From Comamonadaceae bacterium OS-1 (GTDB lineage Bacteria > Pseudomonadota > Gammaproteobacteria > Burkholderiales > Burkholderiaceae_C), in the NCBI GenBank assembly GCA_027923965.1, contig AP026969.1:1302001-1366000 (forward strand): a DNA stretch of 64,000 nt, given 5' to 3'. Numbering within the stretch: position 1 is the stretch's first letter; every line of letters begins with the position of its first letter. This document shows, piece after piece, positions 49,479 through 64,000 of this stretch. A program made the translations under genes and the position numbers. The notes under the pieces were generated by a model, which had not been told where the DNA came from, ran no database searches, and saw only the letters and a list, made by a program, of their open reading frames with translations.

Positions 49479-49541
49479 GTGAAATGGGCCGCTTGTGCCT
49501 ATTCCATCAGCATGAGCAGCTACTGAATCAATAGCGATTGT
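49479..49541 (-). repeat. Dispersed hairpin repeat, copy 10, forming the 3' end of the rpiR-type gene
   Basis: The reverse strand reads GCTATTGATTCAGTAGCTGC, then TCATGCTGATGGAATAGGCAC and AAGCGGCCCATTT in series. The first 19 bases equal copy 1. Its start encodes the last residues and the stop codon of the adjacent regulator. Confidence 0.8.
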
Positions 49542-50173
49542 CGGGCACTGTGGACGGCTTGCGCCAGGGTCAGGCCGGCCGGAATGCCTTGTAAACCCTG
49601 GCCCAAGAGGGGCGTACAGAGGTGGGCATGGTGCAGGGGGCTGGCATTGGGCGCATCGCTGATGCGCACCACGGGGATGCCATGGGGCGCTGCCGCGCTC
49701 TCGGTGGCCAGCGCCACCCACAGCAGCACATCGCCCGGTTCCGGCTGCCACGGAAAAGGAGGCTGCCACTGCACCTGCAGTCCGGCCACGCGCAGCATGT
49801 CGGCATAGCACTGCGCGACCTGGGCGGTGGCGGGGCTGGCCTGCAGCCACACGCTGCGGGCCTGAACCAGCAGGTGGGCGGCCAGGCCGAACGCGTTGAC
49901 GGTGTCGCCGTCCACCTGCAGACCCTGGCCCTGGTCCGCACCGGCCTCCGTCAAAAACGCCATCTTGAAGTCCAGAAAGCCGCGAAACCCGTAGCGCTTG
50001 GCCAGGCGCACTACCGTGACGGGTTGGGTCTCGCAGTGCTGGGCCACCTCCTGGATGCGGCGCAGGTGCAGGTGCCGCGCATGCTGCAGGCAGTAGTGGG
50101 CCACCTGCTGCAGCTTGGGGCTCAGGCTGGGCAGGTTGCGGGTGATGCGCGCCTCCAGGGCGGTGGCCTGCAT
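49520..50173 (-). CDS. MurR/RpiR-family transcriptional regulator
   Basis: A 217-aa protein. The N-terminal RpiR HTH (about 5-78) shows LSPKLQQVAHYCLQHA, then EVAQHCETQPVTVVRLAKRYGFRGFLDFK. The rest (about 95-217) is where a SIS sugar-phosphate domain should be, but it is short and lacks a clear glycine/serine loop, so effector binding may be altered. The frame runs upstream into the dehydrogenase, but the ATG at 50173 fits the family. It is the last gene of the LacI-controlled operon, 5 bp after the dehydrogenase stop. The final five residues come from a dispersed repeat. Confidence 0.82.
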   Translation of the reverse strand: MQATALEARITRNLPSLSPKLQQVAHYCLQHARHLHLRRIQEVAQHCETQPVTVVRLAKRYGFRGFLDFKMAFLTEAGADQGQGLQVDGDTVNAFGLAAHLLVQARSVWLQASPATAQVAQCYADMLRVAGLQVQWQPPFPWQPEPGDVLLWVALATESAAAPHGIPVVRISDAPNASPLHHAHLCTPLLGQGLQGIPAGLTLAQAVHSARQSLLIQ

Positions 50174-50178
50174 GGGGT

Positions 50179-51189
50179 TCAGGCCAGCACGGGCTTGCCG
50201 TCTTTCAGCGCCACCGGTTTGCCCGACTTGGCAGACAGCGTGGCGGCTTCGGCCACGGCCAGCGCATTGATGCCGTCCTTCAGGGTAACGGGCAGGGCGC
50301 TGCCCGACTCCAGGGCGGCGATGAAGGCGGTCCATTCGGCCTTGTAGGCGCGCATGTAGCGCTCCAGGAAGAAGAACTCGGGCTTGGCGCTGACTGCGCC
50401 GCCGGTGGTGAGCTTGGTGACGGTGTGCTCCAGCACGTTGTTGGCGGTCAACAGGCCTTCGGAGCCCAGCAGTTCCACGCGCTGGTCGTAGCCGTAGACG
50501 GCGCGGCGGCTGTTCTTGATGGCGGCGATGCGGCCATCGGCCCAGCGCAGGGTGATCACAGCGGTGTCCACATCGCCTGCCTCGCCAATGGCCGGGTCCA
50601 CGATGCTGGAGGCGATGGCCGATACGGTTTCCGGCAGGCCGCCAAACAGCCAGCAGGCCATGTCGAAGTCGTGGATGGCCATGTCGCGGAACAGGCCGCC
50701 CGAGACCTTGATGTACGAGACTGGCGGTGGCGCGGGGTCGAACGAGGTGATGGACAGGAGCTCGCCCTTGCCGATTTCACCGGCATCCAGTGCGCGCTTG
50801 AGGGCCGCAAACTGGGGGTCGAAGCGGCGGTTGAAGCCAATCATCACGGGCTTGCCGCTGTCTTTCACGGCTTCCTGGCAGGCCAGGGCGCGGCCCAGGT
50901 CCAGGTCCACCGGCTTTTCGCACAGCACGGCTTTGCCCGCGGCGGTGGCGGCTTCGATCAGGTTCGAGTGGGTGTCGGTGGAGGTGGCGATCAGCACCGC
51001 GTGAATGCTGGGGTCGTTCAGGATGTTTTGCGTGCTGCGGGCCTCGGCACCGCAGGTGGCGGCCAGCTTTTCTGCCGACGGCATGTGCACATCGGAGATG
51101 GCTACCAGTTGGCACAAGGGGTGGCTGGTGATGCTTTGGGCGTGCACGTTGCCGATGCGGCCTGCGCCGAGAAGACCAATTTTGAACAT
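50179..51189 (-). CDS. Gfo/Idh/MocA-family dehydrogenase (inositol 2-dehydrogenase-like)
   Basis: A 336-aa NAD(P)-dependent oxidoreductase. The N-terminal Rossmann fold has GLLGAGRIGNVHA, then CEKPVDLD (about 93-100; the catalytic Lys). The C-terminal domain has GFNRRFDP, KVSGGLFRDMAIHDFD (about 165-180, with the catalytic Asp/His pair) and EFFFLERYMRAYKAE. It most resembles myo-inositol 2-dehydrogenase IolG and MocA. The ATG at 51189 is chosen at the start of the fold, though the frame extends to 51423. It works with the adjoining isomerase-like and oxygenase genes on a polyol or sugar-like substrate (inference). Confidence 0.9.
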   Translation of the reverse strand: MFKIGLLGAGRIGNVHAQSITSHPLCQLVAISDVHMPSAEKLAATCGAEARSTQNILNDPSIHAVLIATSTDTHSNLIEAATAAGKAVLCEKPVDLDLGRALACQEAVKDSGKPVMIGFNRRFDPQFAALKRALDAGEIGKGELLSITSFDPAPPPVSYIKVSGGLFRDMAIHDFDMACWLFGGLPETVSAIASSIVDPAIGEAGDVDTAVITLRWADGRIAAIKNSRRAVYGYDQRVELLGSEGLLTANNVLEHTVTKLTTGGAVSAKPEFFFLERYMRAYKAEWTAFIAALESGSALPVTLKDGINALAVAEAATLSAKSGKPVALKDGKPVLA

Positions 51190-51232
51190 GTGGATTCCTT
51201 GAAAAAGTGAGGGAGGGGTGAAAGAAAGGGGA

Positions 51233-52021
51233 TCAGGCGGGCAGGGTGAAGGCGGAGCGGAAGGCTTCCAACGCCGCTTCGGGGTCGCCCGAGGCAAAGG
51301 CTTCCATGCCCACCGGGCCGCGGTAGCCCATGGCATGCAGCGCGCGGGCGATACCGGGGTAGTTGATTTCGCCGGTGCCAGGCTCCATGCGGCCGGGCAC
51401 GTCGGCCACCTGCACTTCGCCAATCCAGGGCAGGCAGCGTTGGCAGAGTTCGACCAGGTTGCCTTCGCCGATCTGGGCGTGGTACAGGTCCAGATTCAGG
51501 CGCAGGCGCGGGTGGTTCACGGCAGACACCAGGGCCAGGGTGTCTTCGGCCCGGCCAAAGGGCACGCCGGGGTGGTCCACCGGCAGATTCAGGTTTTCCA
51601 GGGTAAAGGTCACGCCCTCGGCATCGGCCAGGTCGGCGATGCGGGCCAGGGTGTCGCGGGCTTTGAGCCACATGGCACCGGTAACCACCTGCACCGGCGT
51701 GACGGGCAGGCCGCCATCGCCCAGGCCGGTGCCGTGCAGGTTCAGGCGTGCCACGCCCAGGCGCTTGCCTACCTGGGCTGTCTCGCGGGCGGTGCGCAGC
51801 AGCTCGGCCGCACCTTCGTCGTCGGTCAGGCGGCCGCGCAGATAGCCGTTCATGATGGAGAAGCTGGCGCCGGATTTCTCCAGCTGGGCCAGGTCGTGCT
51901 CGGGCCAGTTCCACAGGCCGACCTGGAAGCCCATCTCGGTGAGGCGCTGCACGCGCCATTGCATGGGTTTGTCGCGCCACAGCATTTCGGCGCAGGCGGC
52001 GAGGGTGAATGCGTTTGTCAT
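51233..52021 (-). CDS. Hydroxypyruvate isomerase / IolE-IolI-like TIM-barrel protein
   Basis: A 262-aa xylose-isomerase-like TIM barrel. Metal-ligand stretches are LENLNLPVDHPG (Glu, about 140), LNLDLYHAQIGEG (Asp/His, about 173-180), VQVADVPGRMEPGTGEINY and GMEAFASGDPE (Glu). The GEINYPGIARAL and VPGRMEPGTG patterns are those of hydroxypyruvate isomerase Hyi and its relatives, including IolE/IolI/MocC-like proteins. In this operon an inosose or keto-sugar isomerase role seems more likely than glyoxylate metabolism (inference). Confidence 0.85.
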   Translation of the reverse strand: MTNAFTLAACAEMLWRDKPMQWRVQRLTEMGFQVGLWNWPEHDLAQLEKSGASFSIMNGYLRGRLTDDEGAAELLRTARETAQVGKRLGVARLNLHGTGLGDGGLPVTPVQVVTGAMWLKARDTLARIADLADAEGVTFTLENLNLPVDHPGVPFGRAEDTLALVSAVNHPRLRLNLDLYHAQIGEGNLVELCQRCLPWIGEVQVADVPGRMEPGTGEINYPGIARALHAMGYRGPVGMEAFASGDPEAALEAFRSAFTLPA

Positions 52022-52026
52022 AGGGT

Positions 52027-52338
52027 TCAGATTTCGATGTGGATGCGGCCGTTTTCGACCTTGGTGGGAAAAGTTTTCAGGTTCACGCAGACCGGCGCAC
52101 GCCGGGCTTCGCCGGTGCGGTAGTCAAACGCGCCGCTGTGCTTGGGGCACTCGACCTCATGGTCCATGACCAGGCCGTCGGCCAGATGCACGGCTTCGTG
52201 GGTGCAGAGCCCTGCCGTGCAGTAGTACTGGTCGTCCGGGCTGCGGAAGATGGCAAAGGTCTTGCTGGCGTGGTCGAAGCGGATGGCCTCTTCGGGTTCC
52301 ACGTCGTCTGCGGCGCAGGCGTTGATCCATTCGGGCAT
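52027..52338 (-). CDS. Rieske [2Fe-2S] ferredoxin (MocE-like)
   Basis: A 103-aa soluble Rieske ferredoxin. Cluster ligands are CTHEAVHL (about 45-47) and CPKHSG (about 64-67). It begins MPEWINACAADDVEPEEAIRF, typical of oxygenase-associated ferredoxins and MocE. It should pass electrons to the neighbouring sterol-desaturase-like oxygenase. No ferredoxin reductase gene is in the window. It is separated from the isomerase by 5 bp and from the oxygenase by 24 bp. Confidence 0.92.
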   Translation of the reverse strand: MPEWINACAADDVEPEEAIRFDHASKTFAIFRSPDDQYYCTAGLCTHEAVHLADGLVMDHEVECPKHSGAFDYRTGEARRAPVCVNLKTFPTKVENGRIHIEI

Positions 52339-52362
52339 GGGGTGTGTTCCTCAGGGTTGGAT

Positions 52363-53379
52363 TTAGGTGGAAGGTGTTTCTGCGTTCATCCGGGCGCGCT
52401 TTTTGTCAAAGCGGGCCTGCATACGGGCCTCGCCCGCCGGGGAGCCGTCGTGCCAGGTGCCAAACAGCATGTCCAGCGGTACCAGCTGGTCGCCGCCGTA
52501 GTTCACCTCGAAGTACTTGTGGTGCAGGTAGTGGGCATAGGCCGAGCTGTCAAACGCCACACCGTCCACCACTTCCACCTTGTCGAAACCAATGTGGCCG
52601 TTGAGTGCGCCAAAGCCTGCGATGTGCAGCTGGAACAGCGCGATGACGGGGTTGGACGGAATCACCAGGTGCCACAGCGCCACCGCGTGGTACAAAAAGG
52701 CCTCTACCGGGTGCATGGACAGCGAAGACCACGGCGTGGGGTTGACCGAGTTGTGGTGGATGGCGTGCACCCACTTGTAGCCCAGGCGGGTGTGCATGGC
52801 CCAGTGGATGAAGAAGAAGTGGGTTTCGTGGATCACCGGGGCCAGCAGCACCAGGGCCGCCAGCCAATACGGGTTGTCTGCCCAGGCCAGCCAGGGCACG
52901 TAGCCATTGGCAAAGCACCACAGAAACAGCACTTCCACCACGGTCCACAGCGGGATGGACACGCAAAAGCTGCGCAAGAAGTTGTCGATGTTCTGGCTTT
53001 TGAACCAGAACACGTCCGAGGGCTGGTCGGCCGGGAATTTGCCGTTGAACTTGAACGTGGTGCCCTGGCGGCGGCGCACATAGAGTTGCAGCTCAAACGC
53101 GCCATACAGCACGAACACGGCGGCGGCATTCACCGCATACAGCCACAGCGCCCAGCCCCAGCCCAAGGTCTTCATGGTCTCCACATCCGGCACCACGGCG
53201 TACCAGTACAGCAGGGCACTGGCCATGTGCAAGGCGTTCCAGGGCCAGACATACGACACCAGCCAGCGCAGGACCTTGCCCAGGTTGAAGGGCCGCACCC
53301 ACAGAGGGGCGGGTTCCAGCGCTTGGTACGGGGCCCAGTCGCCGCGCTTGTTGCGTTTACCGAGTTGCGAGTCATCCAT
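52363..53379 (-). CDS. Sterol desaturase / fatty-acid hydroxylase-superfamily di-iron oxygenase
   Basis: A 338-aa integral membrane protein with 4-6 hydrophobic segments (about 38-60, 75-100, 140-165, 170-190). It has the eight-histidine pattern of the superfamily: HETHFFFIHWAMH (about 190-202), HAIHHN (about 211-216) and HYLHHKYFE (about 290-298). These bind a di-iron centre for O2-dependent hydroxylation or demethylation. It is the first gene of the operon, 39 bp downstream of a 14-bp palindromic operator. The partner is presumably the Rieske ferredoxin encoded next. The substrate is probably the compound taken up by the divergent ABC importer (inference). Confidence 0.88.
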   Translation of the reverse strand: MDDSQLGKRNKRGDWAPYQALEPAPLWVRPFNLGKVLRWLVSYVWPWNALHMASALLYWYAVVPDVETMKTLGWGWALWLYAVNAAAVFVLYGAFELQLYVRRRQGTTFKFNGKFPADQPSDVFWFKSQNIDNFLRSFCVSIPLWTVVEVLFLWCFANGYVPWLAWADNPYWLAALVLLAPVIHETHFFFIHWAMHTRLGYKWVHAIHHNSVNPTPWSSLSMHPVEAFLYHAVALWHLVIPSNPVIALFQLHIAGFGALNGHIGFDKVEVVDGVAFDSSAYAHYLHHKYFEVNYGGDQLVPLDMLFGTWHDGSPAGEARMQARFDKKRARMNAETPST

Positions 53380-53417
53380 GGGGGTTCCTGGGGTTCAAAG
53401 TCTTAGTTTTCATGAAA

Positions 53418-53431
53418 TGCAACCGGGTGCA
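53418..53431. promoter_or_regulatory. LacI-type operator 1 (upstream of the oxygenase operon)
   Basis: TGCAACCGGGTGCA, nearly palindromic around CCGG. It is the exact reverse complement of the site at 54840-54853 and lies 39 bp before the oxygenase start codon. The surrounding 53432-53520 stretch is strongly AT-rich and probably holds the divergent promoters. Confidence 0.75.
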
Positions 53432-53559
53432 AAACATGGCAAAATTTTTTAGAAATTAAGTGCGAAATTTAAATTTTTCGAATTAATTTTCCAATGCGAT
53501 GATCATTACACAGCCACAATTGGATTTTTCTAAGGGTTTTCGATAGGATTTGGCGGATT

Positions 53560-53573
53560 TGCACTCGGGTGCA
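53560..53573. promoter_or_regulatory. LacI-type operator 2 (upstream of the lacI-family gene)
   Basis: TGCACTCGGGTGCA, two changes from operator 1. It is placed 60 bp before the regulator start, consistent with autoregulation. Confidence 0.65.
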
Positions 53574-53632
53574 CATCGATGGCGGGCGGATAGACTGGCG
53601 GTACACGCCTTGAACTCCATCTGCCCCACACC

Positions 53633-54649
53633 ATGCACCCCGACCATCCCAACAAAAAAGTCACGGCCAGTGATGTGGCCGAGCGCGCCGGTGTCTCCAA
53701 ATGGACCGTGTCCCGCGCCTTTACCGACGGTGCCTCCATCGCCCCCGAGGTGCGCGACCGCGTCCGGGCGCTGGCCACCGAAATGGGCTACTCGCCCAAT
53801 CTGCTGGCCCGCAGCCTGTCGACCCGCAGTACCGGCCTGATCGCGCTGGTGGTGGACGAGCTGGGCAACCCCAACCAGCTGGTGTCCTTGAACGAGGCCA
53901 CCCGCCAGCTCCAGGCACGGGGCCTGAGCACGCTGCTGCTCAACACCAGCCCCGAGTACCGGCCTGCGCTGGCGCTGCGCCTGGCAGACCAGTTCCAGGT
54001 GGACGGCATCATGTTTCTGGGCACCACGCTGACGCGGGACCTGGTGGAGTTGGCGCAGCGCATCAAGCACATCCCGCTGGTGGTCATCATGCGCAACAGC
54101 GGGCAGGCGGACATTCCCTTTGTCAGCACCGATGGCTATGCCGCAGGCGCGGAGATTGCCAACCTATTTCTGGCACAGGGCTACCGGCGCATTGGCTACA
54201 TGGCCGGCCCGCTGTCCGAGCGCACCGAGCTGCGCCGCATGGAGGGCTTTCGGGACCGGCTGCAGGCCGCGGGCGTGGCGCTGGCCACGGTGATCGAAAC
54301 CGCGCACTACCGCCGCGAGCAGGGCATGCACGCCCTGCAACGCTACCTGGAGTCCACCCCCCGCACAGAGCGCCTGGAAGCGCTGTTCTGTGAAAACGAC
54401 ATTCTGGCCATCGGTGCCATGGACGCACTGGTGGCCGCTAACGCCCAGCGCAAGATCGCCATCGTCGGCTTTGACGACATCGAAATGGCCGCGTCCCCCA
54501 GCTACCAGCTCACCACCTTCCGCCAGCCGGTGGACTACCTGGTGGGCGAGGCCATCCGGCTGATCGTGGAGCCCGCCAGTGCCGTGTCACGGGCGCTCAT
54601 GGCCCCCGGCTCCCTGGTGCTGCGCGACTCGCACCGGCGGCACGACTGA
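53633..54649 (+). CDS. LacI-family transcriptional repressor
   Basis: A 338-aa regulator. The N-terminal LacI HTH is VTASDVAERAGVSKWTVSRAF (about 10-30), with the hinge helix SPNLLARSLSTRSTG (about 54-68). The effector domain (about 70-330) resembles periplasmic sugar-binding proteins, with LIALVVDEL, DGIMFLGTT and a typical C-terminal IVGFDDIEMAASPSYQLTTF. Four operator-like palindromes in the flanking control regions suggest it controls the oxygenase operon, itself and the ABC importer. The inducer is likely the imported sugar- or polyol-like compound. Confidence 0.94.
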   Translation: MHPDHPNKKVTASDVAERAGVSKWTVSRAFTDGASIAPEVRDRVRALATEMGYSPNLLARSLSTRSTGLIALVVDELGNPNQLVSLNEATRQLQARGLSTLLLNTSPEYRPALALRLADQFQVDGIMFLGTTLTRDLVELAQRIKHIPLVVIMRNSGQADIPFVSTDGYAAGAEIANLFLAQGYRRIGYMAGPLSERTELRRMEGFRDRLQAAGVALATVIETAHYRREQGMHALQRYLESTPRTERLEALFCENDILAIGAMDALVAANAQRKIAIVGFDDIEMAASPSYQLTTFRQPVDYLVGEAIRLIVEPASAVSRALMAPGSLVLRDSHRRHD

Positions 54650-54656
54650 GGTTTTT

Positions 54657-54670
54657 TGCGTCCGGGTGCA
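54657..54670. promoter_or_regulatory. LacI-type operator 3 (between lacI and the ABC importer)
   Basis: TGCGTCCGGGTGCA, a weaker match to operator 1, 8 bp after the lacI stop codon. It is spaced about 183 bp from operator 4, which could allow looping. Confidence 0.5.
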
Positions 54671-54839
54671 AGCCCGTGACACTGCTTCGGTTGGTGTGGC
54701 TACGCCCAAGATTGGCCTGAAACAGGCCCTTCACCCCCGTAATTTTTGGAAATATCAATTTTTTACAGCGATGTATTGAAAGTTTATTTCCACGGGCAAA
54801 CACCTAGACGGGTTTTGCAAGATGTTGGCTACAGTTATT

Positions 54840-54853
54840 TGCACCCGGTTGCA
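54840..54853. promoter_or_regulatory. LacI-type operator 4 (upstream of the ABC importer)
   Basis: TGCACCCGGTTGCA, the exact reverse complement of operator 1, 66 bp before the binding-protein start codon. The 54729-54839 stretch before it is AT-rich and probably includes the promoter. Confidence 0.75.
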
Positions 54854-54919
54854 TAACCACAGCCGGTGTGATCCACACCGATTTTTGCCATCCACACCAG
54901 ACACCCCGAGGAGATCAAC

Positions 54920-55900
54920 ATGCATGCAGTACAACGTACCCTGAAGCGGGCGGCGGCCGCCGCCATCGTGGCCACCCTGGCCACCACGGCCATGGCGGCA
55001 GGGCCGAAAATTTTCGTGATCGGCGGCAAGGCTGACGATCCGTTCTGGTCGCGGGTCAAAAAAGGCGCGGACGATGCAGCCCTGGTCGTCAAGGCTGCTG
55101 GCGGCAGCGTCACCTGGCTGGGCCCACAGACCTACGACAACCTCGGCCCCGATGCCGCCAAGCTCATCCGCTCGGCCCTGAGCCAGAAGCCCGATGCCAT
55201 CGTCGGCCCCGACTGGGTGCCCGAAGCCATGGACGCGGCCTTCAAGGAAGTGGTGGCCGCCGGTGTGCCGTTGATCATCTACAACTCTGGCGGCATCGAG
55301 GCCGCCAAGCGCCTGGGTGCCCAGAACTACGTGGGCAGCGAAGAGTACGTGGCGGGCACGGGCGGCGGCGAGTATTTCGCTCGCAACGGTGCCAAGTTCG
55401 TGCTGTGCATCAACACCCAGCCCGGCTCCACCAACCAGGAGGCGCGCTGCAAAGGCGTGGCCGATGGCATGGCCAAAGGTGGCGGCAAGAGTGTGCAGTT
55501 GCCCCTGCCGTCTTCGGCCTTCGGCAATCCCACGGCGGTGGCCCAGGCCATCAAGGCCGCCCTGCAAAAAGATCCCACGGTGGACGGCGTGATCACCATC
55601 GGTGCCAACGATGCCAACAGCGCCGCCAACGGCATCAGCCAGGGCGGCTTTACCAAGAAGGTGAAGCTGGGCACTTTTGACATCGACCCCACCAACCTGC
55701 AGCGCATCAAGGCCGGCACGCAGCTCTTCTGTATCGACCAGCAGCCCTACCTGCAAGGCTACCTGGCCGTTTCCATGCTCAACGCCTACGTGCAGTACGG
55801 CCTGAAAGTGCCCACCGCGCCCATCCTGACCGGCCCCGGCATCGTGGACGCGTCCAACGTGGATGCCACCGTGGCGGGTGCCGCCGCCGGAGCCCGCTGA
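54920..55900 (+). CDS. Sugar ABC transporter substrate-binding protein (RbsB/FrcB/MocB type)
   Basis: A 326-aa periplasmic binding protein (Peripla_BP_4). It has a signal peptide (cleavage near AMA-A, about 27), then KIFVIGGKADDPFWSRVKKGADDAA. Later motifs are KPDAIVGPDWVPEAMDAAFKE, a QPGSTNQEARCKGVADGM loop and FDIDPTNLQRIKAGT. Two Cys residues in the mature protein (LCIN, ARCK) may pair. GAGGAG precedes the ATG. It delivers a sugar- or inositol-like ligand to the permease/ATPase encoded next. Confidence 0.93.
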   Translation: MHAVQRTLKRAAAAAIVATLATTAMAAGPKIFVIGGKADDPFWSRVKKGADDAALVVKAAGGSVTWLGPQTYDNLGPDAAKLIRSALSQKPDAIVGPDWVPEAMDAAFKEVVAAGVPLIIYNSGGIEAAKRLGAQNYVGSEEYVAGTGGGEYFARNGAKFVLCINTQPGSTNQEARCKGVADGMAKGGGKSVQLPLPSSAFGNPTAVAQAIKAALQKDPTVDGVITIGANDANSAANGISQGGFTKKVKLGTFDIDPTNLQRIKAGTQLFCIDQQPYLQGYLAVSMLNAYVQYGLKVPTAPILTGPGIVDASNVDATVAGAAAGAR

Positions 55901-55970
55901 CCGACGTATGGCGGGGCGCAGCCTGGATGGCTGGGCCCCGTCCCCTTCCCATGACCACTACGAGCCCACC

Positions 55971-57044
55971 ATGAACCCGCACACCTCCCTATCAGCGTCC
56001 GCCGCCAGCGCGCCGGATGCTCGCCCAGGCCGCACGCCCTGGTCTTTTGGCGCACTGCTGCGCCGCCCCGAAACCGGCTCCTTCATCGGGCTGGTGGCGG
56101 TCTTTGTCTTTTTCTCCATCTTCGGTGGAGCCACCTTTTTGTCTGCCGGGGGCGCTGCCAGCTGGCTGAACATCGCCGCCGAGCTGGGCATCATTGCCTT
56201 GCCCATCGGCCTGCTGATGATTGCGGGCCAGCTGGACCTGTCGATCGGCAGCGTGATCCCGGCCAGCTCCATGACCGTGGCCATCGTCTCCGGCCACTTT
56301 GGCCTGCCCATGCCTGTGGGCATGGCTGCCGCGCTGGGCCTGGGCCTGGCGGTGGGCTGGCTCAACGGCTACCTGATCGTGCGTACCGATCTGCCGTCCT
56401 TCGTGGTCACGCTGGCCACCTTGTTTGCGGTGGCGGGTTTGACCCTGGGCCTGTCGGTGATCGTGGCAGGCAGCACCAGCGTGGCCCTGGTCAGTGCGCC
56501 CATCTACAAGATGCTGTTTGGCGACTTCATCGACGGCAAGTTCGAGGTCGTTTTGCTGTGGTGGCTGGCCGCCATCGCCCTGGTCAGCTACATCCTGAGC
56601 TACTCCAAATATGGCAACTGGATCCTGGCCCTGGGCGGCGACAAGGTCAGCGCGCGCAACGCGGGCATTCCTACCGACAAGCTCAATATCGCGCTGTACA
56701 TGTCCAGCGGCTTTTGCGCGGCGTTTGTGGGCATGTGCCAGGCCATTCTGTACAACAGCGCCCAGGTGTCGGCCGGGCAGTCCTTCATCTTCAATTCCAT
56801 CATCGCGGTGGTCATCGGCGGCGTGTTTCTCACCGGCGGCTACGGCTCGGTGCTGGGCATCGTGCTGGGCACGGTCACCTTCGCCATCGTCAACCAGGGC
56901 ATCTACTACACCGGCTTCGATGCCAACTGGGCCAGCCTGATCATTGGCGTGCTGCTCCTGGCCGCCGTGCTGCTCAACAACACCTTCCGCACCCTGGCGC
57001 TGGCGCACTCCAAGCCGCGCACCACGACAAAGGCCCTGAAATGA
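55971..57044 (+). CDS. Sugar ABC transporter permease (RbsC/FrcC type)
   Basis: A 357-aa membrane protein of the BPD_transp_2 family with about ten helices. Conserved stretches are GIIALPIGLLMIAGQLDLSIGS (in two pieces, about 78-99), GYLIVRTDLPSFVVTLATLF and ALGGDKVSARNAGIPTDKLN (the EAA-like cytoplasmic loop), and IAVVIGGVFLTGGYGSVLG. The start chosen is ATG 55971; the frame upstream overlaps the binding-protein gene. The stop overlaps the ATPase start. Confidence 0.92.
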   Translation: MNPHTSLSASAASAPDARPGRTPWSFGALLRRPETGSFIGLVAVFVFFSIFGGATFLSAGGAASWLNIAAELGIIALPIGLLMIAGQLDLSIGSVIPASSMTVAIVSGHFGLPMPVGMAAALGLGLAVGWLNGYLIVRTDLPSFVVTLATLFAVAGLTLGLSVIVAGSTSVALVSAPIYKMLFGDFIDGKFEVVLLWWLAAIALVSYILSYSKYGNWILALGGDKVSARNAGIPTDKLNIALYMSSGFCAAFVGMCQAILYNSAQVSAGQSFIFNSIIAVVIGGVFLTGGYGSVLGIVLGTVTFAIVNQGIYYTGFDANWASLIIGVLLLAAVLLNNTFRTLALAHSKPRTTTKALK

Positions 57045-57823
57045 CCACCCCCATCTTGCAACTCAAAGGTGTTAACAAATCCTTTGGCCCCGTCGATGTG
57101 CTGCACGACATTTCGCTGGACGTTTACGCCGGTGAAGTGCTGTGCCTGCTGGGCGACAACGGTGCGGGCAAATCCACGCTGATCCGTCTGCTGTCGGGTG
57201 TGCACAAGCCCACCTCGGGCCAGATGCTGATGCAGGGCAAGCCGGTGCTGTTCGAGAACCCGCGCGAGGCCAGCAACCATGGCATTGCCACCGTGCACCA
57301 GTTCGGCGGCACCTTCCCGCTGATGAGCATTGGCCGTTCGTTCTTTGTGGGGGCCGAGCCCACCAAGCGCTGGGGCCCGTTCGAGGTGTTTGACCGCGAG
57401 TACGCCAACGGCGTGGCGGTGCGCGAGATGCGCGAGCTGGGCATCACCCGCATCGACGATGGCGACCGCCTGGTCGGTGGCCTGTCGGGCGGCGAGCGCC
57501 AGGCCCTGGCCATCGCCCGCGCCGTGCACTTCGGTGCCCATGTCTTGATTCTGGATGAGCCCACCGCCGCGCTGGGCGTGAAAGAGGCCGCCCACGTGCT
57601 GCGCATCGTGCAGCAGGCGCGCAAGAAAGGTATTGCCGTCATCTTCATTACCCACCAGGTCATGCACGCCCTGACCGTGGGCGACCACTTCGCCGTGCTG
57701 ATCCGGGGGGCCAAGGCCGCCGACTTCCGCAAGGGCGAAAAGACCCGCGAGGAAGTGACCGACCTGATGGCCGGTGGCGAGGCCATGGCGGACCTGGAAG
57801 CCGAGATCGAAAGCCAGATGTAA
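57041..57823 (+). CDS. Sugar ABC transporter ATP-binding protein (FrcA type)
   Basis: A 260-aa single ABC ATPase. Walker A GDNGAGKST is at about 38-46, the Q-loop at TVHQFGG, the signature LSGGERQALAIARA at about 148-161, Walker B HVLILDEPTAALG, and the H-loop in FITHQVMHAL. Single-domain ATPases of this kind serve ribose/fructose/inositol-type importers as homodimers. Translationally coupled to the permease (ATGA). Confidence 0.94.
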   Translation: MTTPILQLKGVNKSFGPVDVLHDISLDVYAGEVLCLLGDNGAGKSTLIRLLSGVHKPTSGQMLMQGKPVLFENPREASNHGIATVHQFGGTFPLMSIGRSFFVGAEPTKRWGPFEVFDREYANGVAVREMRELGITRIDDGDRLVGGLSGGERQALAIARAVHFGAHVLILDEPTAALGVKEAAHVLRIVQQARKKGIAVIFITHQVMHALTVGDHFAVLIRGAKAADFRKGEKTREEVTDLMAGGEAMADLEAEIESQM

Positions 57824-57844: not shown

Positions 57845-57915
57845 CTATGCTTCAAAAATAATAGCTGCTCACGCCCATGCAATAAGCACGAGAGGCCTAA
57901 AAGGCCTGAAATTTA
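57845..57915 (+). repeat. Dispersed hairpin repeat, copy 11
   Basis: GCTATGCTTCAAAAATAATAG then CTGCTCACGCCCATGCAATA, AGCACGAG and an AGGCCT-AAA-AGGCCT mini-palindrome. It fills the gap between the convergent ABC operon and liu operon and may act as a terminator for both. Confidence 0.75.
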
Positions 57916-58815
57916 CTTGGCCCGTTTGGCCAGCAGCGCCCGCCCCACGCGCGAGGCCGAGGCGCGGCCCAGCTGGGCGTTGATCCAGTCGCCGCAGTCC
58001 ACCAGCCGGTCCAGATCCACGCCGGTGTCTGCGCCCAACCGGTGCAGCAAATACACCACGTCTTCGGTCGCCACATTGCCCGTGGCCCCCTTGGCATACG
58101 GGCAGCCGCCCAGGCCGCCGACCGAGCTGTCGAAGGCGCGCAGGCCAAACTGGTACGAGGCGTAGACGTTGGCAACCGCCATGCCGTAGGTGTCGTGGTA
58201 ATGGCCCGCCAACTGGGCCACCGGCACCTGCTGCGCCACCGCGTCCAGCATGCGCAGCACCGAGTCGGGCGTGCCCACACCAATCGTGTCGCCCAGCGAT
58301 ACCTCGTAGCAGCCCATGGCCAGTAGTTGCCCAGCCACGTCGGCCACGCGCTGGGGGGCCACATCGCCCTCGTACGGGCAGCCCACCACGCAGGACACGT
58401 AGCCGCGCACCCGCACGCCCTGGGCCTGGGCGGCGGCCATCAGCGGGGCGAAGCGGGACAGGGATTCGGCGATGGAGCAGTTGATGTTCTTCTGCGAAAA
58501 CGCTTCGGAGGCGGCGGCGAATACGGCCACCTGGTCGGCCCCAGCCTCCACGGCTGCGTTAAAGCCCTGCAGGTTGGGGGTCAGCACCGGGTAGGTCACA
58601 CCGGGGCGGCGCAACAAGCCACGCATGATCTCGGCGGAGTCTCCCATTTGCGGCACCCATTTGGGCGACACAAAGGAGGTGGCCTCGATCTCGCGCAGCC
58701 CGGCATCGGCCAGGCGCTCGATCAGCTCCAGCTTGGTGGCGGTGGAGACGAGCTGCTTTTCGTTTTGCAGGCCGTCGCGCGGGCCCATCTCGATGATGCG
58801 CACAAAGTCGCTCAT
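57913..58815 (-). CDS. liuE: Hydroxymethylglutaryl-CoA lyase
   Basis: A 300-aa TIM-barrel lyase (MvaB/LiuE). Motifs are IIEMGPRDGLQNE (metal Asp, about 8-20), TSFVSPKWVPQM, SLGDTIGVGTP, HYHDTYGMAVAN (metal HxH) and the catalytic cysteine loop VGGLGGCPYAKGATGNVATED (in two parts, about 258-278). It cleaves HMG-CoA to acetyl-CoA and acetoacetate, the last step of leucine breakdown. The ATG overlaps the liuD stop. Last gene of the operon. Confidence 0.95.
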   Translation of the reverse strand: MSDFVRIIEMGPRDGLQNEKQLVSTATKLELIERLADAGLREIEATSFVSPKWVPQMGDSAEIMRGLLRRPGVTYPVLTPNLQGFNAAVEAGADQVAVFAAASEAFSQKNINCSIAESLSRFAPLMAAAQAQGVRVRGYVSCVVGCPYEGDVAPQRVADVAGQLLAMGCYEVSLGDTIGVGTPDSVLRMLDAVAQQVPVAQLAGHYHDTYGMAVANVYASYQFGLRAFDSSVGGLGGCPYAKGATGNVATEDVVYLLHRLGADTGVDLDRLVDCGDWINAQLGRASASRVGRALLAKRAK

Positions 58816-60791
58816 GGTGCAGCCTCGAAATCCACCAAATCTACCCCATCGCCCACCTGTTCCCCCGCGCTGAAATAGAAGCCCTTGACCAGTCCCTTGG
58901 TGGGCGCGTGGATGGTGTGCTCCATCTTCATGGCTTCCAGCACCAGCAGGGGCGTGCCTTTTTCTACCGTGGCACCCACCGCCGCCAGCAGGGCGATCAC
59001 CTTGCCGGGCATGGGTGCATGGATGCCGCCGTGGGCATCGTCGCCGCCTTCGCCGTGCAGCAGCTCCACCTGGGCCAGCGCCCAGCTTTGGCCTTGGCAG
59101 AACACGTGCAAGTGCTCGGCACGCGCTACCACTGTGGCGGTGAGGCGGCGGTCGCCCAATTGCACCTGCGATGGGCCGGTGCGGCGGGCCAGCACGGGCT
59201 CACCGCCTATGGCGAGTAGCACGCCATCCGCCACCACTTCGGCAGTCACGGCTTGCTCCGTCTCGCCACAGCGCAGGGTAATGGTTTGCTGCGATGTGCC
59301 GTTGAGCCGCCAGCCGTCCAGCACGCGCCAGGGCGAGTCGGGTTCCATGGCGGGCAGGGCGGCGGCATCGGTTTGGCTTTGCAGCACGCTTAAAGCGGCC
59401 AGCATCCACACATCGGCGGGCACGGCTTCGGCCTGGGTAGGGAACAGGTGCTCCTGCTCGCGCTCGATCAGTGCGGTGTCCAATTTCGCCTGGGAAAATG
59501 ACGGCGTAGTCACCAGGCGCTGCAGGAAGGCCACGTTGTTGGCCACACCGACGACCTGGTAGTCGGCCAGGGCCTGGCGCATGCGGGCCAGGGCCTGGGT
59601 GCGGTCGGCATCCCAGACGATGAGCTTGGCGATCATCGGGTCATAGTGCGGGGTGATGTCGTCCCCTTGCTCTACCCCGGTATCGATGCGCACGTGGGCG
59701 GACGCAGCCGGGGGCAGCAGGTGGCTGAGGCGGCCGGTGGAAGGCAGAAAGCCTCTGTCCGGATCTTCGGCGTAGATGCGCGCCTCGATGGCGTGGCCGG
59801 TCAGCACCAGTTGGTCTTGCGCCAGCGGCAGGGCCTCGCCCGAGGCCACGCGCAGTTGCCATTCCACCAGGTCCAGCCCGGTGATCATCTCGGTGACCGG
59901 GTGCTCTACCTGCAGCCGGGTGTTCATTTCCATGAAGTAGAAGGCACCGTCCTGGTGGGCAATGAACTCCACCGTGCCTGCGCCCACATAGCCCACGGCC
60001 AGAGCGGCGTTGACGGCGGCCGTGCCCATGGCGGCGCGGCGCTCGGCGGTCATGCCGGGGGCGGGGGCTTCTTCCAGCACCTTCTGGTGGCGGCGTTGCA
60101 CCGAGCAGTCGCGTTCGAACAGGTAGACGCAGTGGCCCAGGCTGTCACCAAATACCTGGATTTCGATGTGGCGCGGCTGCAGCACGTACTTCTCGATCAG
60201 CACATGGTCGTTGTTGAATGCGTTGACGGCTTCGCGCTTGCACGACACCAGCGATGCCTCGAAATCGGCTGCGGCATCGACCCGGCGCATGCCCTTGCCG
60301 CCGCCGCCTGCGCTGGCTTTGATCAGCACCGGGTAGCCGATGTCTTTAGCCTGCGCGGCCAGAAAGCCGGGGTCCTGGTTGTCGCCGTGGTAGCCGGGGG
60401 TCAGGGGTACACCGGCTTTTTCCATCAGGGTCTTGGCCGAAGATTTGCTGCCCATGGCGCGGATGGCCGAAGCAGGCGGGCCGATGAAGACCACACCGGC
60501 CTGGGCGCAGGCATCGGCAAAGTCGGCGTTTTCGGACAAAAATCCGTAGCCGGGGTGTACCGCCTGGGCACCGGTTTGCAGTGCGGCGGTCAGGATCTTG
60601 TCGGCCACCAGGTACGACTCGCGGGCTGCTGCCGGGCCGATGCACACGGCCTCGTCGGCCAGCCGCACATGGCGGGCGTTGGCATCGGCTTGCGAGTACA
60701 CCGCCACGGTGCGGATGCCCATGCGGCGGGCGGTCTTGATGACGCGGCAGGCGATCTCCCCACGATTAGCGATCAGAATCTTGTTGAACAT
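58812..60791 (-). CDS. liuD: Methylcrotonyl-CoA carboxylase, biotin-carrying alpha subunit
   Basis: A 659-aa biotin-dependent carboxylase subunit. The biotin carboxylase N-domain starts MFNKILIANRGEIACRVIKTA. The ATP-grasp domain (about 115-310) has KASAGGGGKGMR and the EMNTRLQVEHPVTE active site. The C-terminal BCCP domain has the biotinylated lysine in LEAMKMEHTIHAP (about 625). With LiuB it carboxylates 3-methylcrotonyl-CoA. Acyl specificity (methylcrotonyl rather than propionyl or geranyl) is inferred from the operon. Confidence 0.94.
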   Translation of the reverse strand: MFNKILIANRGEIACRVIKTARRMGIRTVAVYSQADANARHVRLADEAVCIGPAAARESYLVADKILTAALQTGAQAVHPGYGFLSENADFADACAQAGVVFIGPPASAIRAMGSKSSAKTLMEKAGVPLTPGYHGDNQDPGFLAAQAKDIGYPVLIKASAGGGGKGMRRVDAAADFEASLVSCKREAVNAFNNDHVLIEKYVLQPRHIEIQVFGDSLGHCVYLFERDCSVQRRHQKVLEEAPAPGMTAERRAAMGTAAVNAALAVGYVGAGTVEFIAHQDGAFYFMEMNTRLQVEHPVTEMITGLDLVEWQLRVASGEALPLAQDQLVLTGHAIEARIYAEDPDRGFLPSTGRLSHLLPPAASAHVRIDTGVEQGDDITPHYDPMIAKLIVWDADRTQALARMRQALADYQVVGVANNVAFLQRLVTTPSFSQAKLDTALIEREQEHLFPTQAEAVPADVWMLAALSVLQSQTDAAALPAMEPDSPWRVLDGWRLNGTSQQTITLRCGETEQAVTAEVVADGVLLAIGGEPVLARRTGPSQVQLGDRRLTATVVARAEHLHVFCQGQSWALAQVELLHGEGGDDAHGGIHAPMPGKVIALLAAVGATVEKGTPLLVLEAMKMEHTIHAPTKGLVKGFYFSAGEQVGDGVDLVDFEAAP

Positions 60792-60800
60792 ATTTTTTCC

Positions 60801-61586
60801 TTACGCAACCCAGGAGGGCGCGCGCTTTTCAAGAAATGCCGCCAGGCCTTCGCGGGCCTCGGGCGTGGCGCGCAGGCGGGCGATGCGCTGGGCCGTGTCT
60901 TCCACCAGGGCATCGTCAATGGGGTGGTTGGCAACAGCGCGGATCAGCGCGGTGGCGGCGGCTTGCGCACCTGCCCCACCGGCCTGCAGGGCTTCGAGCA
61001 GGGTGTACACCATGGCATCCAGCGCTTCGGGCGCGGCGACCTCGTGGGCCAGGCCCAGGGCCAGGGCGCGTTCGGCGCTGATGCGCTCTGCGGTCTGGAA
61101 GTAGCGGTAGGCCTGGCGTTCGCCGATGGCGCGCAGCACGTAGGGGCTGATGGCGGCGGGAATGATGCCAAAGCGCACTTCCGAGGTAGCGAACTGCGCC
61201 TTGCTGGAAGCCACGCAGATGTCGCAGGCAGCAGCCAGGCCCATGCCGCCACCCAGCGCTGCACCGTGCACGCGGGCGATGGTGGGCGTGGCCAAGCAAG
61301 ACAAGGTGCGGAACAGGTTCGCCAATTGGCGTGCATCGTCCACGTTCTTTTCCAGCGTAGCTGCGCCCTGGCGCTGCATCCAGCCCAGGTCGGCCCCGGC
61401 GGAGAAGCTTTTGCCCCGGCCCGCCAGCACCACGGCGCGCACGGCGGGGTCGGCATCCAGCGCCAGCAGGGCCTGGGTCAGCTCGGTGATCAGGGTTTCG
61501 TCAAAGGCGTTGTGCACCTCGGGCTTGTTCATCCACAGCCAGGCGGCGCTGCCCTGGTGTTCGATTTCTAGGGTCGTGTAGGACAT
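60801..61586 (-). CDS. liuC: Methylglutaconyl-CoA hydratase (enoyl-CoA hydratase family)
   Basis: A 261-aa crotonase-fold enzyme. Oxyanion-hole motifs are KSFSAGADLGWMQ (about 62-74) and HGAALGGGMGLAAACD (about 105-120), followed by EVRFGIIPAAISPYV with the catalytic Glu. It hydrates 3-methylglutaconyl-CoA to HMG-CoA. The ATG at 61586 (MSYTTLEI) is the family-like start; upstream codons reach 61637 but overlap liuB. It lies between the two carboxylase subunit genes, as in other liu operons. Confidence 0.93.
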   Translation of the reverse strand: MSYTTLEIEHQGSAAWLWMNKPEVHNAFDETLITELTQALLALDADPAVRAVVLAGRGKSFSAGADLGWMQRQGAATLEKNVDDARQLANLFRTLSCLATPTIARVHGAALGGGMGLAAACDICVASSKAQFATSEVRFGIIPAAISPYVLRAIGERQAYRYFQTAERISAERALALGLAHEVAAPEALDAMVYTLLEALQAGGAGAQAAATALIRAVANHPIDDALVEDTAQRIARLRATPEAREGLAAFLEKRAPSWVA

Positions 61587-61593
61587 GGTGGCC

Positions 61594-63201
61594 TCACATG
61601 CGGAAGATGCCGAACTGCGTGGGCTGGATGGGCGCATTCAGCGCGCTGGCCAGCGACAGGCCCAGCACGCGCCGGGTTTGCGCCGGGTCCACCACACCGT
61701 CGTCCCACAGCCGGGCCGTGGCGTAATAGGGGTGGCCTTGCAGCTCGTACTGGGCGCGGATGGGATCTTTGAAAGCGGTTTCTTCCTCGGCCGACCACTG
61801 GCCTCCTTTGGCTTCGATGCCCTCGCGCTTCACGGTAGCGAGCACGCCCGCGGCCTGCTCGCCGCCCATGACGCTGATGCGCGCATTGGGCCACATCCAT
61901 AGGAACCGGGGCGAATAGGCCCGGCCACACATGCCGTAGTTGCCTGCGCCAAAGCTGCCGCCCACCAGCATGGTGATCTTGGGCACGGCGGCGGTGGCCA
62001 CGGCGGTGACCATCTTGGCCCCGTCTTTGGCGATGCCACCGTTTTCGTACTTGCGGCCAATCATGAAGCCGGTGATGTTCTGCAAGAACACCAGCGGGAT
62101 GCCGCGCTGTGCGCACAGCTCGATAAAGTGCGCGCCCTTTTGGGCCGACTCGGCAAACAAAATACCGTTGTTGGCGATGATGCCCACCGGCATGCCGTAC
62201 AGCCGGGCAAAGCCGGTGACCAGGGTGCTGCCATAGCGGGCCTTGAATTCGTCAAAGCGGGAGCCGTCCACGGTGCGGGCGATGATTTCGCGCACGTCAT
62301 AGGGCTTGCGTGCGTCCAGCGGCACCACGCCGTAGATTTCTGCGGGGTCGTACAGCGGCTCTTCGCTGGATTCCAGCTTGACCGTGTAGGGCTTTTGCCG
62401 GTTCAGGTTGCCGACGATGTTGCGGGCGATGAGCAGGGCGTGCTGGTCGTTGTCGGCCAGGTGGTCGGCCACGCCGGAGATGCGGGTGTGCACGTCGCCC
62501 CCGCCCAGGTCTTCGGCAGTGACGACTTCGCCGGTTGCGGCCTTCACCAGGGGCGGGCCGCCCAGAAAGATGGTGCCCTGGTTTTTGACGATGATGGTTT
62601 CATCGCTCATGGCGGGCATATAGGCCCCGCCTGCGGTGCACGAGCCCATCACCACGGCAATTTGCGCAATGCCCATGGCGCTCATCTGGGCCTGGTTGTA
62701 GAAGATGCGGCCAAAGTGGTCGCGGTCGGGAAAGACCTCGTCCTGGCGCGGCAAAAAGGCCCCGCCCGAATCCACCAGGTAGATGCAGGGCAGGTGGTTT
62801 TGCATGGCAATTTCTTGCGCACGAAGATGCTTCTTGACCGTCAAGGGGTAGTAAGTGCCGCCTTTGACGGTGGCATCGTTGGCCACCACCATGCATTCCA
62901 CGCCGTTCACCCGGCCTACGCCGGTGATCAGCCCGGCGGCGGGGGCTTCGCCGTCGTACATGCCGTAGGCTGCGAGTTGCCCGACCTCCAAAAACGGTGT
63001 GCCGGGGTCAAGCAGTTGGGCCACGCGGTCACGCGGCAGTAGCTTGCCGCGTGCGGTGTGGCGCTGGCGGGCCACCTCGCCGCCGCCCAGGGCGGCAACA
63101 GCTGCTTTTTCGCGCAGGTCTTGCACCAGGGTGCGCATGGCGTCCGCATTGGCACGGAAGGCCGGGTCGCGGGGTTGGAGCTGGGATTTCAGGACTTGCA
63201 T
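61594..63201 (-). CDS. liuB: Methylcrotonyl-CoA carboxylase, carboxyltransferase beta subunit
   Basis: A 535-aa carboxyltransferase. N- and C-domain crotonase-like halves contain [21 protein letters not shown] (in two parts), [50 protein letters not shown] and [22 protein letters not shown]. These are hallmarks of MCC beta. Start ATG 63201 (MQVLKSQ); the 14 upstream codons run into liuA. Works with LiuD. Confidence 0.95.
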
Positions 63202-63211
63202 GGCGCGGTAC

Positions 63212-64000
63212 TTACATGGTTTCTGCAAACAGCTCGCGGCCAATCAGCATGCGGCGGATTTCGCTGGTGCCCGCGCCGATTTCATACAGCTTGGCATCGC
63301 GCCACAGACGGGGCGTGGGGTATTCGTTGATGTAGCCGTTGCCGCCCAGAATCTGGATCGCCTCGCCCGCCATCCAGGTGGCTTTTTCGGCCAGGTACAG
63401 GATGGCACCGGCGGCATCCTTGCGCAGCGTGCGGGCGTGGTCGGCCCGGTCGCAGGCGGCGGCTACCGCATAGCCATAGGCACGGCAAGCCTGCCAGGTG
63501 GTGTACATGTCGGCCAGCTTGCCCTGCATCAACTGGAATTCGCCAATGCTTTGGCCGAACTGCTTGCGGTCGTGCACATAGGGCACCACCACGTCCATGC
63601 AGGCCGCCATGATGCCTAAAGGGCCGCCGCACAGCACGGTGCGCTCGTAGTCCAGGCCCGACATCAGCACTTTGACACCCTGGCCCACACCGCCTAGCAC
63701 GTTCTCGGCGGGCACTTCGCAGTCTTCAAAAAATACCGGGTAGGTGTTGGAGCCGCGCATGCCCATTTTGTCCAGCTTGGTGCCGAAGCTCAGGCCTTTA
63801 AAGCTTTTTTCGATGATGAAGGCGGTCATGCCCTTGGCACCGGCGTGGATGTCGGTCTTGGCGTAGACGATCAGGGTGTCGGCATCGCCACCGTTGGTGA
63901 TCCACATCTTGGAGCCGTTGAGCACATAACGGTCGCCCTTCAGGTCTGCGCGCAGCTTCATGCTGACCACGTCGGAGCCCGCATTCGGCTCGCTCATGGC
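63212..64000 (-). CDS. liuA: Isovaleryl-CoA dehydrogenase (5'-partial, cut by window end)
   Basis: The C-terminal ~263 residues of an acyl-CoA dehydrogenase; the N-terminus lies beyond base 64000. FAD-binding motifs are MSEPNAGSD and WITNGGDAD. The catalytic glutamate appears in [14 protein letters not shown], the position used by isovaleryl-CoA dehydrogenase, while the usual C-terminal site reads YEIGAGTSE with no Glu before GT. This residue swap supports the isovaleryl assignment. It is the first gene of the liu operon seen here; no liuR regulator is in the window. Confidence 0.93.

Follow-up and report, generated by a model that had tools for sequence, protein, structure and literature searches.

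A divergent gene cluster of Comamonadaceae bacterium OS-1 joins an inositol-type importer to a PF04116 oxygenase and may serve the use of O-methylated inositols

The gene cluster studied here lies in a stretch of 64,000 nucleotides from the genome of Comamonadaceae bacterium OS-1 (GenBank: GCA_027923965.1, contig AP026969.1, positions 1,302,001 to 1,366,000), which we call the window and to which coordinates refer unless the genome or another locus is named. Between 49,520 and 57,823 nine open frames were confirmed, each with a domain above the Pfam cut-off, and they are arranged in two divergent arms. Outward from the divergent spacer, the minus arm encodes an oxygenase, a ferredoxin, a TIM barrel protein, a dehydrogenase and an RpiR-family regulator, with the Pfam domains FA_hydroxylase (Pfam: PF04116), Rieske, xylose-isomerase-like TIM barrel, Gfo/Idh/MocA and HTH_6. 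The plus arm encodes a LacI-family regulator, a substrate-binding protein (SBP), a permease and an ATPase, with the domains LacI, Peripla_BP_4, BPD_transp_2 and ABC_tran. A first-pass annotation, made from the sequence alone, had listed this same gene set, and all of its members are confirmed by Pfam. The features are as follows.

49520..50173, minus strand: RpiR-family regulator, short form (Pfam HTH_6, 37.8 bits; start codon at 50173)
50179..51189, minus strand: IolG, inositol 2-dehydrogenase of the Gfo/Idh/MocA kind (TIGR04380, 420.5 bits, cut-off 355)
51233..52021, minus strand: Hyi/IolI-like TIM barrel, isomerase or epimerase (PF01261, 106.6 bits)
52027..52338, minus strand: MocE-family Rieske [2Fe-2S] ferredoxin (TIGR02377, 180 bits, cut-off 136)
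52363..53379, minus strand: PF04116 membrane di-iron oxygenase, proposed cyclitol O-demethylase (PF04116, 61.8 bits)
53417..53432, no strand: LacI operator-like palindrome 1 (2 mismatches to TTGCACCCGGGTGCAA)
53559..53574, no strand: LacI operator-like palindrome 2 (2 mismatches to TTGCACCCGGGTGCAA)
53633..54649, plus strand: LacI-family regulator (LacI HTH and Peripla_BP)
54656..54671, no strand: LacI operator-like palindrome 3 (2 mismatches to TTGCACCCGGGTGCAA)
54839..54854, no strand: LacI operator-like palindrome 4 (2 mismatches to TTGCACCCGGGTGCAA)
54920..55900, plus strand: periplasmic cyclitol-binding protein, related to the rhizopine SBP model
55971..57044, plus strand: ATP-binding cassette (ABC) permease, ribose/inositol type (PF02653, 149 bits)
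57041..57823, plus strand: ABC ATPase, single ATP-binding domain (PF00005, 103.5 bits)

The dehydrogenase belongs to the IolG family. Besides passing the TIGR04380 threshold, it has 4hkt, an inositol 2-dehydrogenase, as its best PDB match (E 4e-92) and keeps the EKP and DMAIH motifs with their Lys, Asp and His residues, which we take to be catalytic in IolG. The ferredoxin carries the C-x-H...C-x2-H motif, and its TIGR02377 score bears out the expected likeness to MocE. The TIM barrel reaches 107 bits with the hydroxypyruvate isomerase model, under the cut-off of 353, and among solved structures it comes closest to an AP endonuclease family 2 protein, YgbM and ketose 3-epimerases. At the Pfam threshold the RpiR-family regulator has HTH_6 only and no SIS domain.

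Members of PF04116, the fatty acid hydroxylase / sterol desaturase superfamily, are C-H hydroxylases or methyl oxidases, known elsewhere for reactions on fats and sterols. The oxygenase is placed in this superfamily by its score (gathering cut-off 31 bits), its hydrophobic, membrane-type segments and the histidines 187, 192, 196, 205, 208, 209, 223, 283, 286 and 287, which are invariant in 52 sequences. No NCBIfam model matched it at E<=0.01, so that these models do not clearly place it among the lipid or sterol hydroxylases, and its gene context speaks for a cyclitol substrate. The first-pass annotation had compared it with MocD of the rhizopine (moc) system, and here the likeness is not supported. 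The comparison was made with annotated MocD-like proxies from Rhizobium etli and Rhizobium indicum, not with MocD of strain L5-30. The proxy of R. etli IE4803 (locus L123) is a PF00487 protein (136.5 bits), in contrast to the PF04116 oxygenase of the window, and neither BLAST nor profile comparison related the two (hhalign 2%, from shallow alignments). Among the literature matches listed, which cover few subscription papers, there is no PF04116 enzyme acting on a cyclitol.

On the importer side, the best NCBIfam model for the SBP is the rhizopine SBP (NF052284), with 197 bits against a cut-off of 420, which falls short of a MocB assignment. Its nearest solved relative, by sequence as well as by fold, is 4ru1, called a verified myo-inositol transporter in a passage of one paper (PMC10747050). 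Glucose/galactose-binding proteins rank second in the fold list, and the NCBIfam models matched by permease and ATPase are not inositol-specific. The ABC importer is complete, with an SBP of the inositol/rhizopine type. A search for rhizopine-SBP matches at E<=1e-115 in 148 genomes of one rhizobial genus gave no hit and detected no positive control, and so does not imply absence.

All four operator-like palindromes lie in the two spacers flanking lacI and so cover both arms. At up to three mismatches the window holds five motif matches, compared with 0.88 expected, and none of 100 shuffles reached five. In the whole genome (5.12 Mb) seven places match with at most two mismatches, four of which are those in the lacI spacers, and the reversed control gave none. 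Since the motif was drawn from the lacI-spacer sites, the match count is partly circular. Independent support for the operators comes from three related loci labelled as betaproteobacteria (L003, L004 and L079), which have two such sites each; the other 77 related loci have none.

These related loci are the best 80 of 518 stretches encoding an oxygenase relative, found in a scan of genome contigs. In all 80 loci LacI was found within reach of the oxygenase 79 times, the SBP 75, the permease 72, the MocE-type ferredoxin 65, the TIM barrel 61 and a PanB-like protein 59 times. A second count, within 8 kb of the oxygenase and at identity thresholds of 40-60%, was limited to the 59 loci whose DNA extends at least 5 kb upstream and 6.5 kb downstream of it, leaving out 21 in which the DNA ends too close. 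There LacI is present in 58, SBP, permease and ATPase in 56 each, ferredoxin in 52, TIM barrel and PanB-like protein in 51 each, IolG in 36 and a reductase in 15; the thresholds missed the ferredoxin in 7 loci, the TIM barrel in 8 and IolG in 23, and many of these 23 are labelled Mesorhizobium. The usual order in alphaproteobacteria is oxygenase, SBP, permease, ATPase, ferredoxin, TIM barrel, PanB-like protein and IolG, with LacI divergent. The divergent form of the window recurs in Rhodoferax sp. OV413 (L003) and in a Comamonadaceae locus (L004), and L079, labelled Rhizobacter sp., has a third order. The grouping of these genes is not due to chance, and its retention in spite of rearranged orders speaks for a shared function. 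Co-occurrence in other genomes, on which the first-pass annotation had staked its reading, is thus seen for most of the set, mainly beside the oxygenase of alphaproteobacteria and in an order other than that of the window. In three of the loci (L011, L013 and L033) we observed two SBP genes and a second oxygenase, which is 53% identical to that of the window in L011 and 56% in L013.

Within the Burkholderiales, where the first-pass annotation had proposed a search for the operon order, the cluster is rare. Among 399 genomes drawn evenly from the order, the oxygenase was found at E<=1e-90 in one, the source genome itself. A tree of 89 rows places the window together with L003 and L004 (support 100/99), and the rows around them are mostly from alphaproteobacteria. 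Neither result favours a long residence in the Burkholderiales. The catabolic genes appear to have been transferred and to stand with a different regulator; as the tree is rooted at its midpoint and a fork is open, we can only infer the direction of transfer. The LacI of the window shares 22% identity with its counterpart in the Gemmobacter cluster (L084) and 42% with the LacI proteins of two rhizobial clusters, L126 and L127.

The latter two, in Rhizobium sp. T136 (L126) and R. leguminosarum 248 (L127), consist of LacI, SBP, ABC, TIM barrel and Gfo/Idh dehydrogenase genes, and the oxygenase, MocD and ferredoxin queries found no match in them. Further identities to the window are 36-37% for the SBP, 34-36% for the permease, 50-52% for the ATPase and 65-66% for the TIM barrel, and the dehydrogenase is 75% identical in L126 and 37% in L127. 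Having the same set without oxygenase and ferredoxin, they make this pair look like an add-on for a modified inositol. A weak HTH_6 fragment lies behind the dehydrogenase of L126 (L126:13915-14238).

A sister cluster with the order LacI, PF04116 oxygenase, MocE, SBP and reductase (L083, L085, L086 and L087) is found on rhizobial, Shinella and Paracoccus plasmids. Its oxygenase is 60-62% identical to that of the window and is directly followed by a MocE-family ferredoxin, with LacI upstream. It differs in that the SBP belongs to a different subfamily (in L085 it scores 30.8 bits against the rhizopine-SBP model), the LacI is not close to that of the window, the reductase is inside and an isomerase follows in L085-L087; IolG and a cognate permease were not found.

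As the first-pass annotation had noted, none of the cluster proteins in the window is a ferredoxin reductase, and homologues are encoded elsewhere in the genome, where it had suggested looking for a MocF-like protein. Out of eight genome matches, the best homologue of the Shinella reductase of the sister cluster (46% identity) lies at genome positions 1,044,937-1,046,214, about 305 kb away; the match itself spans 1,044,940-1,046,181. It is 55% identical to the reductase encoded downstream of the IolG gene in L004, compared with 39-44% to the others tested. Its neighbours within about 9 kb include an RpiR paralogue, a TIM barrel and two dehydrogenases like IolG, of which one passes the IolG cut-off and the other falls short of it. 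By homology and setting, this reductase, in another inositol locus, is the strongest candidate for the part of MocF, which the cluster lacks. Its locus is absent from the genome matches of the operator motif and is therefore probably outside the control of the cluster LacI. The RpiR paralogue (L117:10325-11200) is 27.6% identical to the RpiR-family regulator of the cluster and has an SIS domain, and a protein of 322 amino acids without Pfam match (L117:7972-8940) adjoins the reductase candidate.

The genome also encodes the inositol (iol) pathway, at about 2.805-2.810 Mb, with an iolC-aldolase fusion (iolCJ, 1018 bits), iolD (884 bits), iolE (389 bits) and iolB (326 bits), all above cut-off. 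Two more MocE-family ferredoxins are encoded no more than about 12 kb from this set; the neighbour of each is a PF00487 oxygenase with 50-53% identity to the MocD-like protein of R. etli. These pairs are at L116:3536-5096 and L116:7701-9199 (about 2.8155-2.8212 Mb), and a LacI-family gene adjoins each. To sample the carriers of the cluster, genomes of 40 of the 80 loci were taken, of which 39 were searchable, and iolD was above cut-off in all 39. In the background of 289 Alphaproteobacteria it was found in at least 36 genomes, one of which is a carrier; the number is a lower bound because at most four candidates per genome were scored. The difference has a Fisher p of about 3e-30, with no correction for kinship, genome size or completeness.

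The PanB-like gene of most relatives was not found in the window cluster, and the one match elsewhere in the genome (28%) is, we infer, ordinary PanB. The PanB-like proteins (Pfam: PF02548) of the PF04116 cluster in Gemmobacter (L084:17179-17988) and of the MocD-like cluster in R. etli (L123:9676-10485) are 53% identical. By eye, putative metal-site segments look altered in both, segments that presumably form the metal site of canonical PanB. In most relatives this protein might capture formaldehyde, a step for which the window genome would have no PanB-like enzyme. In Tabrizicola oligotrophica a MocD-MocE-PanB set (L009:15176-17005) adjoins the PF04116 cluster in opposite orientation.

The moc locus holds a binding protein, a Gfo/Idh dehydrogenase, a TIM barrel and an oxygenase, gene kinds that are also in the window, and the MocE-family ferredoxin is a further likeness. 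The window differs in its PF04116 oxygenase, in having LacI and RpiR regulators instead of MocR, in having its own permease and ATPase, and in a reductase outside the locus. None of the nine proteins has a GntR-type HTH, aminotransferase or deaminase Pfam domain at E<=0.001, so neither a MocR-type regulator nor amine chemistry is seen. The resemblance to moc claimed in the first-pass annotation thus stands for the inositol-class importer, MocE ferredoxin, IolG dehydrogenase, TIM barrel and the presence of an oxygenase; it does not stand for the MocD type, the MocB model, MocR or amine handling. From its genes the cluster seems to work like moc without being a member of it, as four features are lacking (MocD as compared with the proxy, MocF in the locus, MocB and MocR). 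According to three papers, Sinorhizobium meliloti L5-30 and Rhizobium leguminosarum catabolise rhizopine with the mocCABRDEF genes (PMC10107442), MocD is the rhizopine oxygenase that converts 3-O-methyl-scyllo-inosamine to scyllo-inosamine (PMC2593844), and a TIM-barrel family is inferred to serve an inositol derivative from its mocDEF neighbours (PMC3538637).

The operon of LacI, MocD-like protein, MocE, reductase and PanB-like protein in R. etli IE4803 (L123) and R. indicum (L124) is also related. Its ferredoxin is 60% identical to that of the window, LacI and a TIM barrel adjoin, and the PanB-like protein is the one compared with Gemmobacter above. It differs by a PF00487 oxygenase (seen in L123), by the reductase inside and by a TIM barrel and LacI that are not close to those of the window; an ABC importer and IolG are not listed in the examined stretch.

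With moderate confidence we propose that the cluster imports an O-methylated form of inositol, a sugar alcohol widespread in plants, and demethylates it oxidatively. Pinitol, ononitol or another plant cyclitol like them would be the substrate. Electrons from NADH would pass through the MocF-like reductase to the ferredoxin and on to the oxygenase, which would hydroxylate the carbon of the O-methyl group on the inner side of the membrane. The resulting hemiacetal would then release formaldehyde and free inositol. Oxidation by IolG would turn the inositol into an inosose whose stereochemistry the TIM barrel may adjust, and the product would enter the iol pathway encoded elsewhere in the genome. 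LacI would repress both divergent operons until the inducer is present.

A non-aminated methyl-inositol is likelier as the substrate than rhizopine because the SBP stays under the rhizopine cut-off, the oxygenase is of the PF04116 kind, the regulators are LacI and RpiR and no amine domain is seen. True catabolism of rhizopine (3-O-methyl-scyllo-inosamine) with a substituted oxygenase, to which the MocE-type ferredoxin, the kinship of the SBP to the rhizopine model, the Gfo/Idh dehydrogenase and the TIM barrel could point, is quite improbable on the same grounds: the SBP score, the nine proteins without GntR-type, aminotransferase or deaminase domain, and an oxygenase outside the MocD-like Pfam family. 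If the oxygenase instead hydroxylated a C-H bond in an inositol of the deoxy or C-methyl kind (as in quercitol, laminitol or mytilitol), giving inositol without formaldehyde or a hydroxymethyl-inositol, this would agree with the known reactions of PF04116 enzymes. IolG, the SBP and the link to iol suit any inositol-like substrate, and a hydroxymethyl product could in turn be a substrate of the PanB-like partner, whose family carries out hydroxymethyl chemistry. We regard this as unlikely, though not far-fetched, since MocD-like operons have the same ferredoxin and PanB-like partners and MocD is, in the excerpt cited above, a rhizopine demethylase.

The importer could also take up another O-methylated sugar or sugar acid, with the inositol dehydrogenase acting on the substrate or product. 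Substrates of Gfo/Idh/MocA enzymes vary, the permease and ATPase models leave the class of substrate broad and the glucose/galactose-binding proteins come second in the SBP fold list. Against this stand the IolG equivalog threshold that was passed, iolD in every searched carrier and 4ru1 as nearest relative of the SBP, which make this reading decidedly unlikely. An ordinary lipid or sterol hydroxylase that stands beside an inositol importer by chance would fit the PF04116 membership and hydrophobic segments of the oxygenase; this reading is hardly credible given an association that survives rearranged orders in alpha- and betaproteobacteria, operator-like sites common with the importer arm and the lack of an NCBIfam match.

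A broader idea, which we put forward tentatively, is that PF04116 is a second family of membrane di-iron oxygenases, apart from PF00487-type MocD, recruited as O-demethylase of soluble plant cyclitols. It would have the kind of ferredoxin and reductase in common with MocD-like systems and, in most alphaproteobacterial relatives, be accompanied by a PanB-like enzyme that may capture the formaldehyde. If so, plant-associated and aquatic Proteobacteria would have a widespread pathway of methyl-inositol catabolism that has had no name so far. Pinitol and ononitol are made by legumes (PMC8730688), and in Mimosa pudica root exudate pinitol is reported at a higher concentration than any other component (PMC5789663). 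Neither a bacterial pinitol demethylase nor a named demethylation pathway appears among the literature matches listed, with few subscription papers covered. Were the proposed demethylation true, a family regarded as 'lipid' hydroxylases would act on a soluble sugar alcohol, and the cluster would provide the genes together with a regulator and its candidate operators, while the oxygenase-free relatives would serve as a natural control. New here are the four LacI-operator-like palindromes, the reductase candidate about 305 kb away, the iol genes elsewhere in the genome and iolD in 39 of 39 searched carriers.

Genes of leucine-degradation type flank the cluster in the window at 57913-63997 (HMG-CoA lyase, biotin carboxylase, enoyl-CoA hydratase and carboxyltransferase). 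The same kind of neighbours, perhaps by coincidence, is found on the Paracoccus yeei plasmid (L086:14447-21011).

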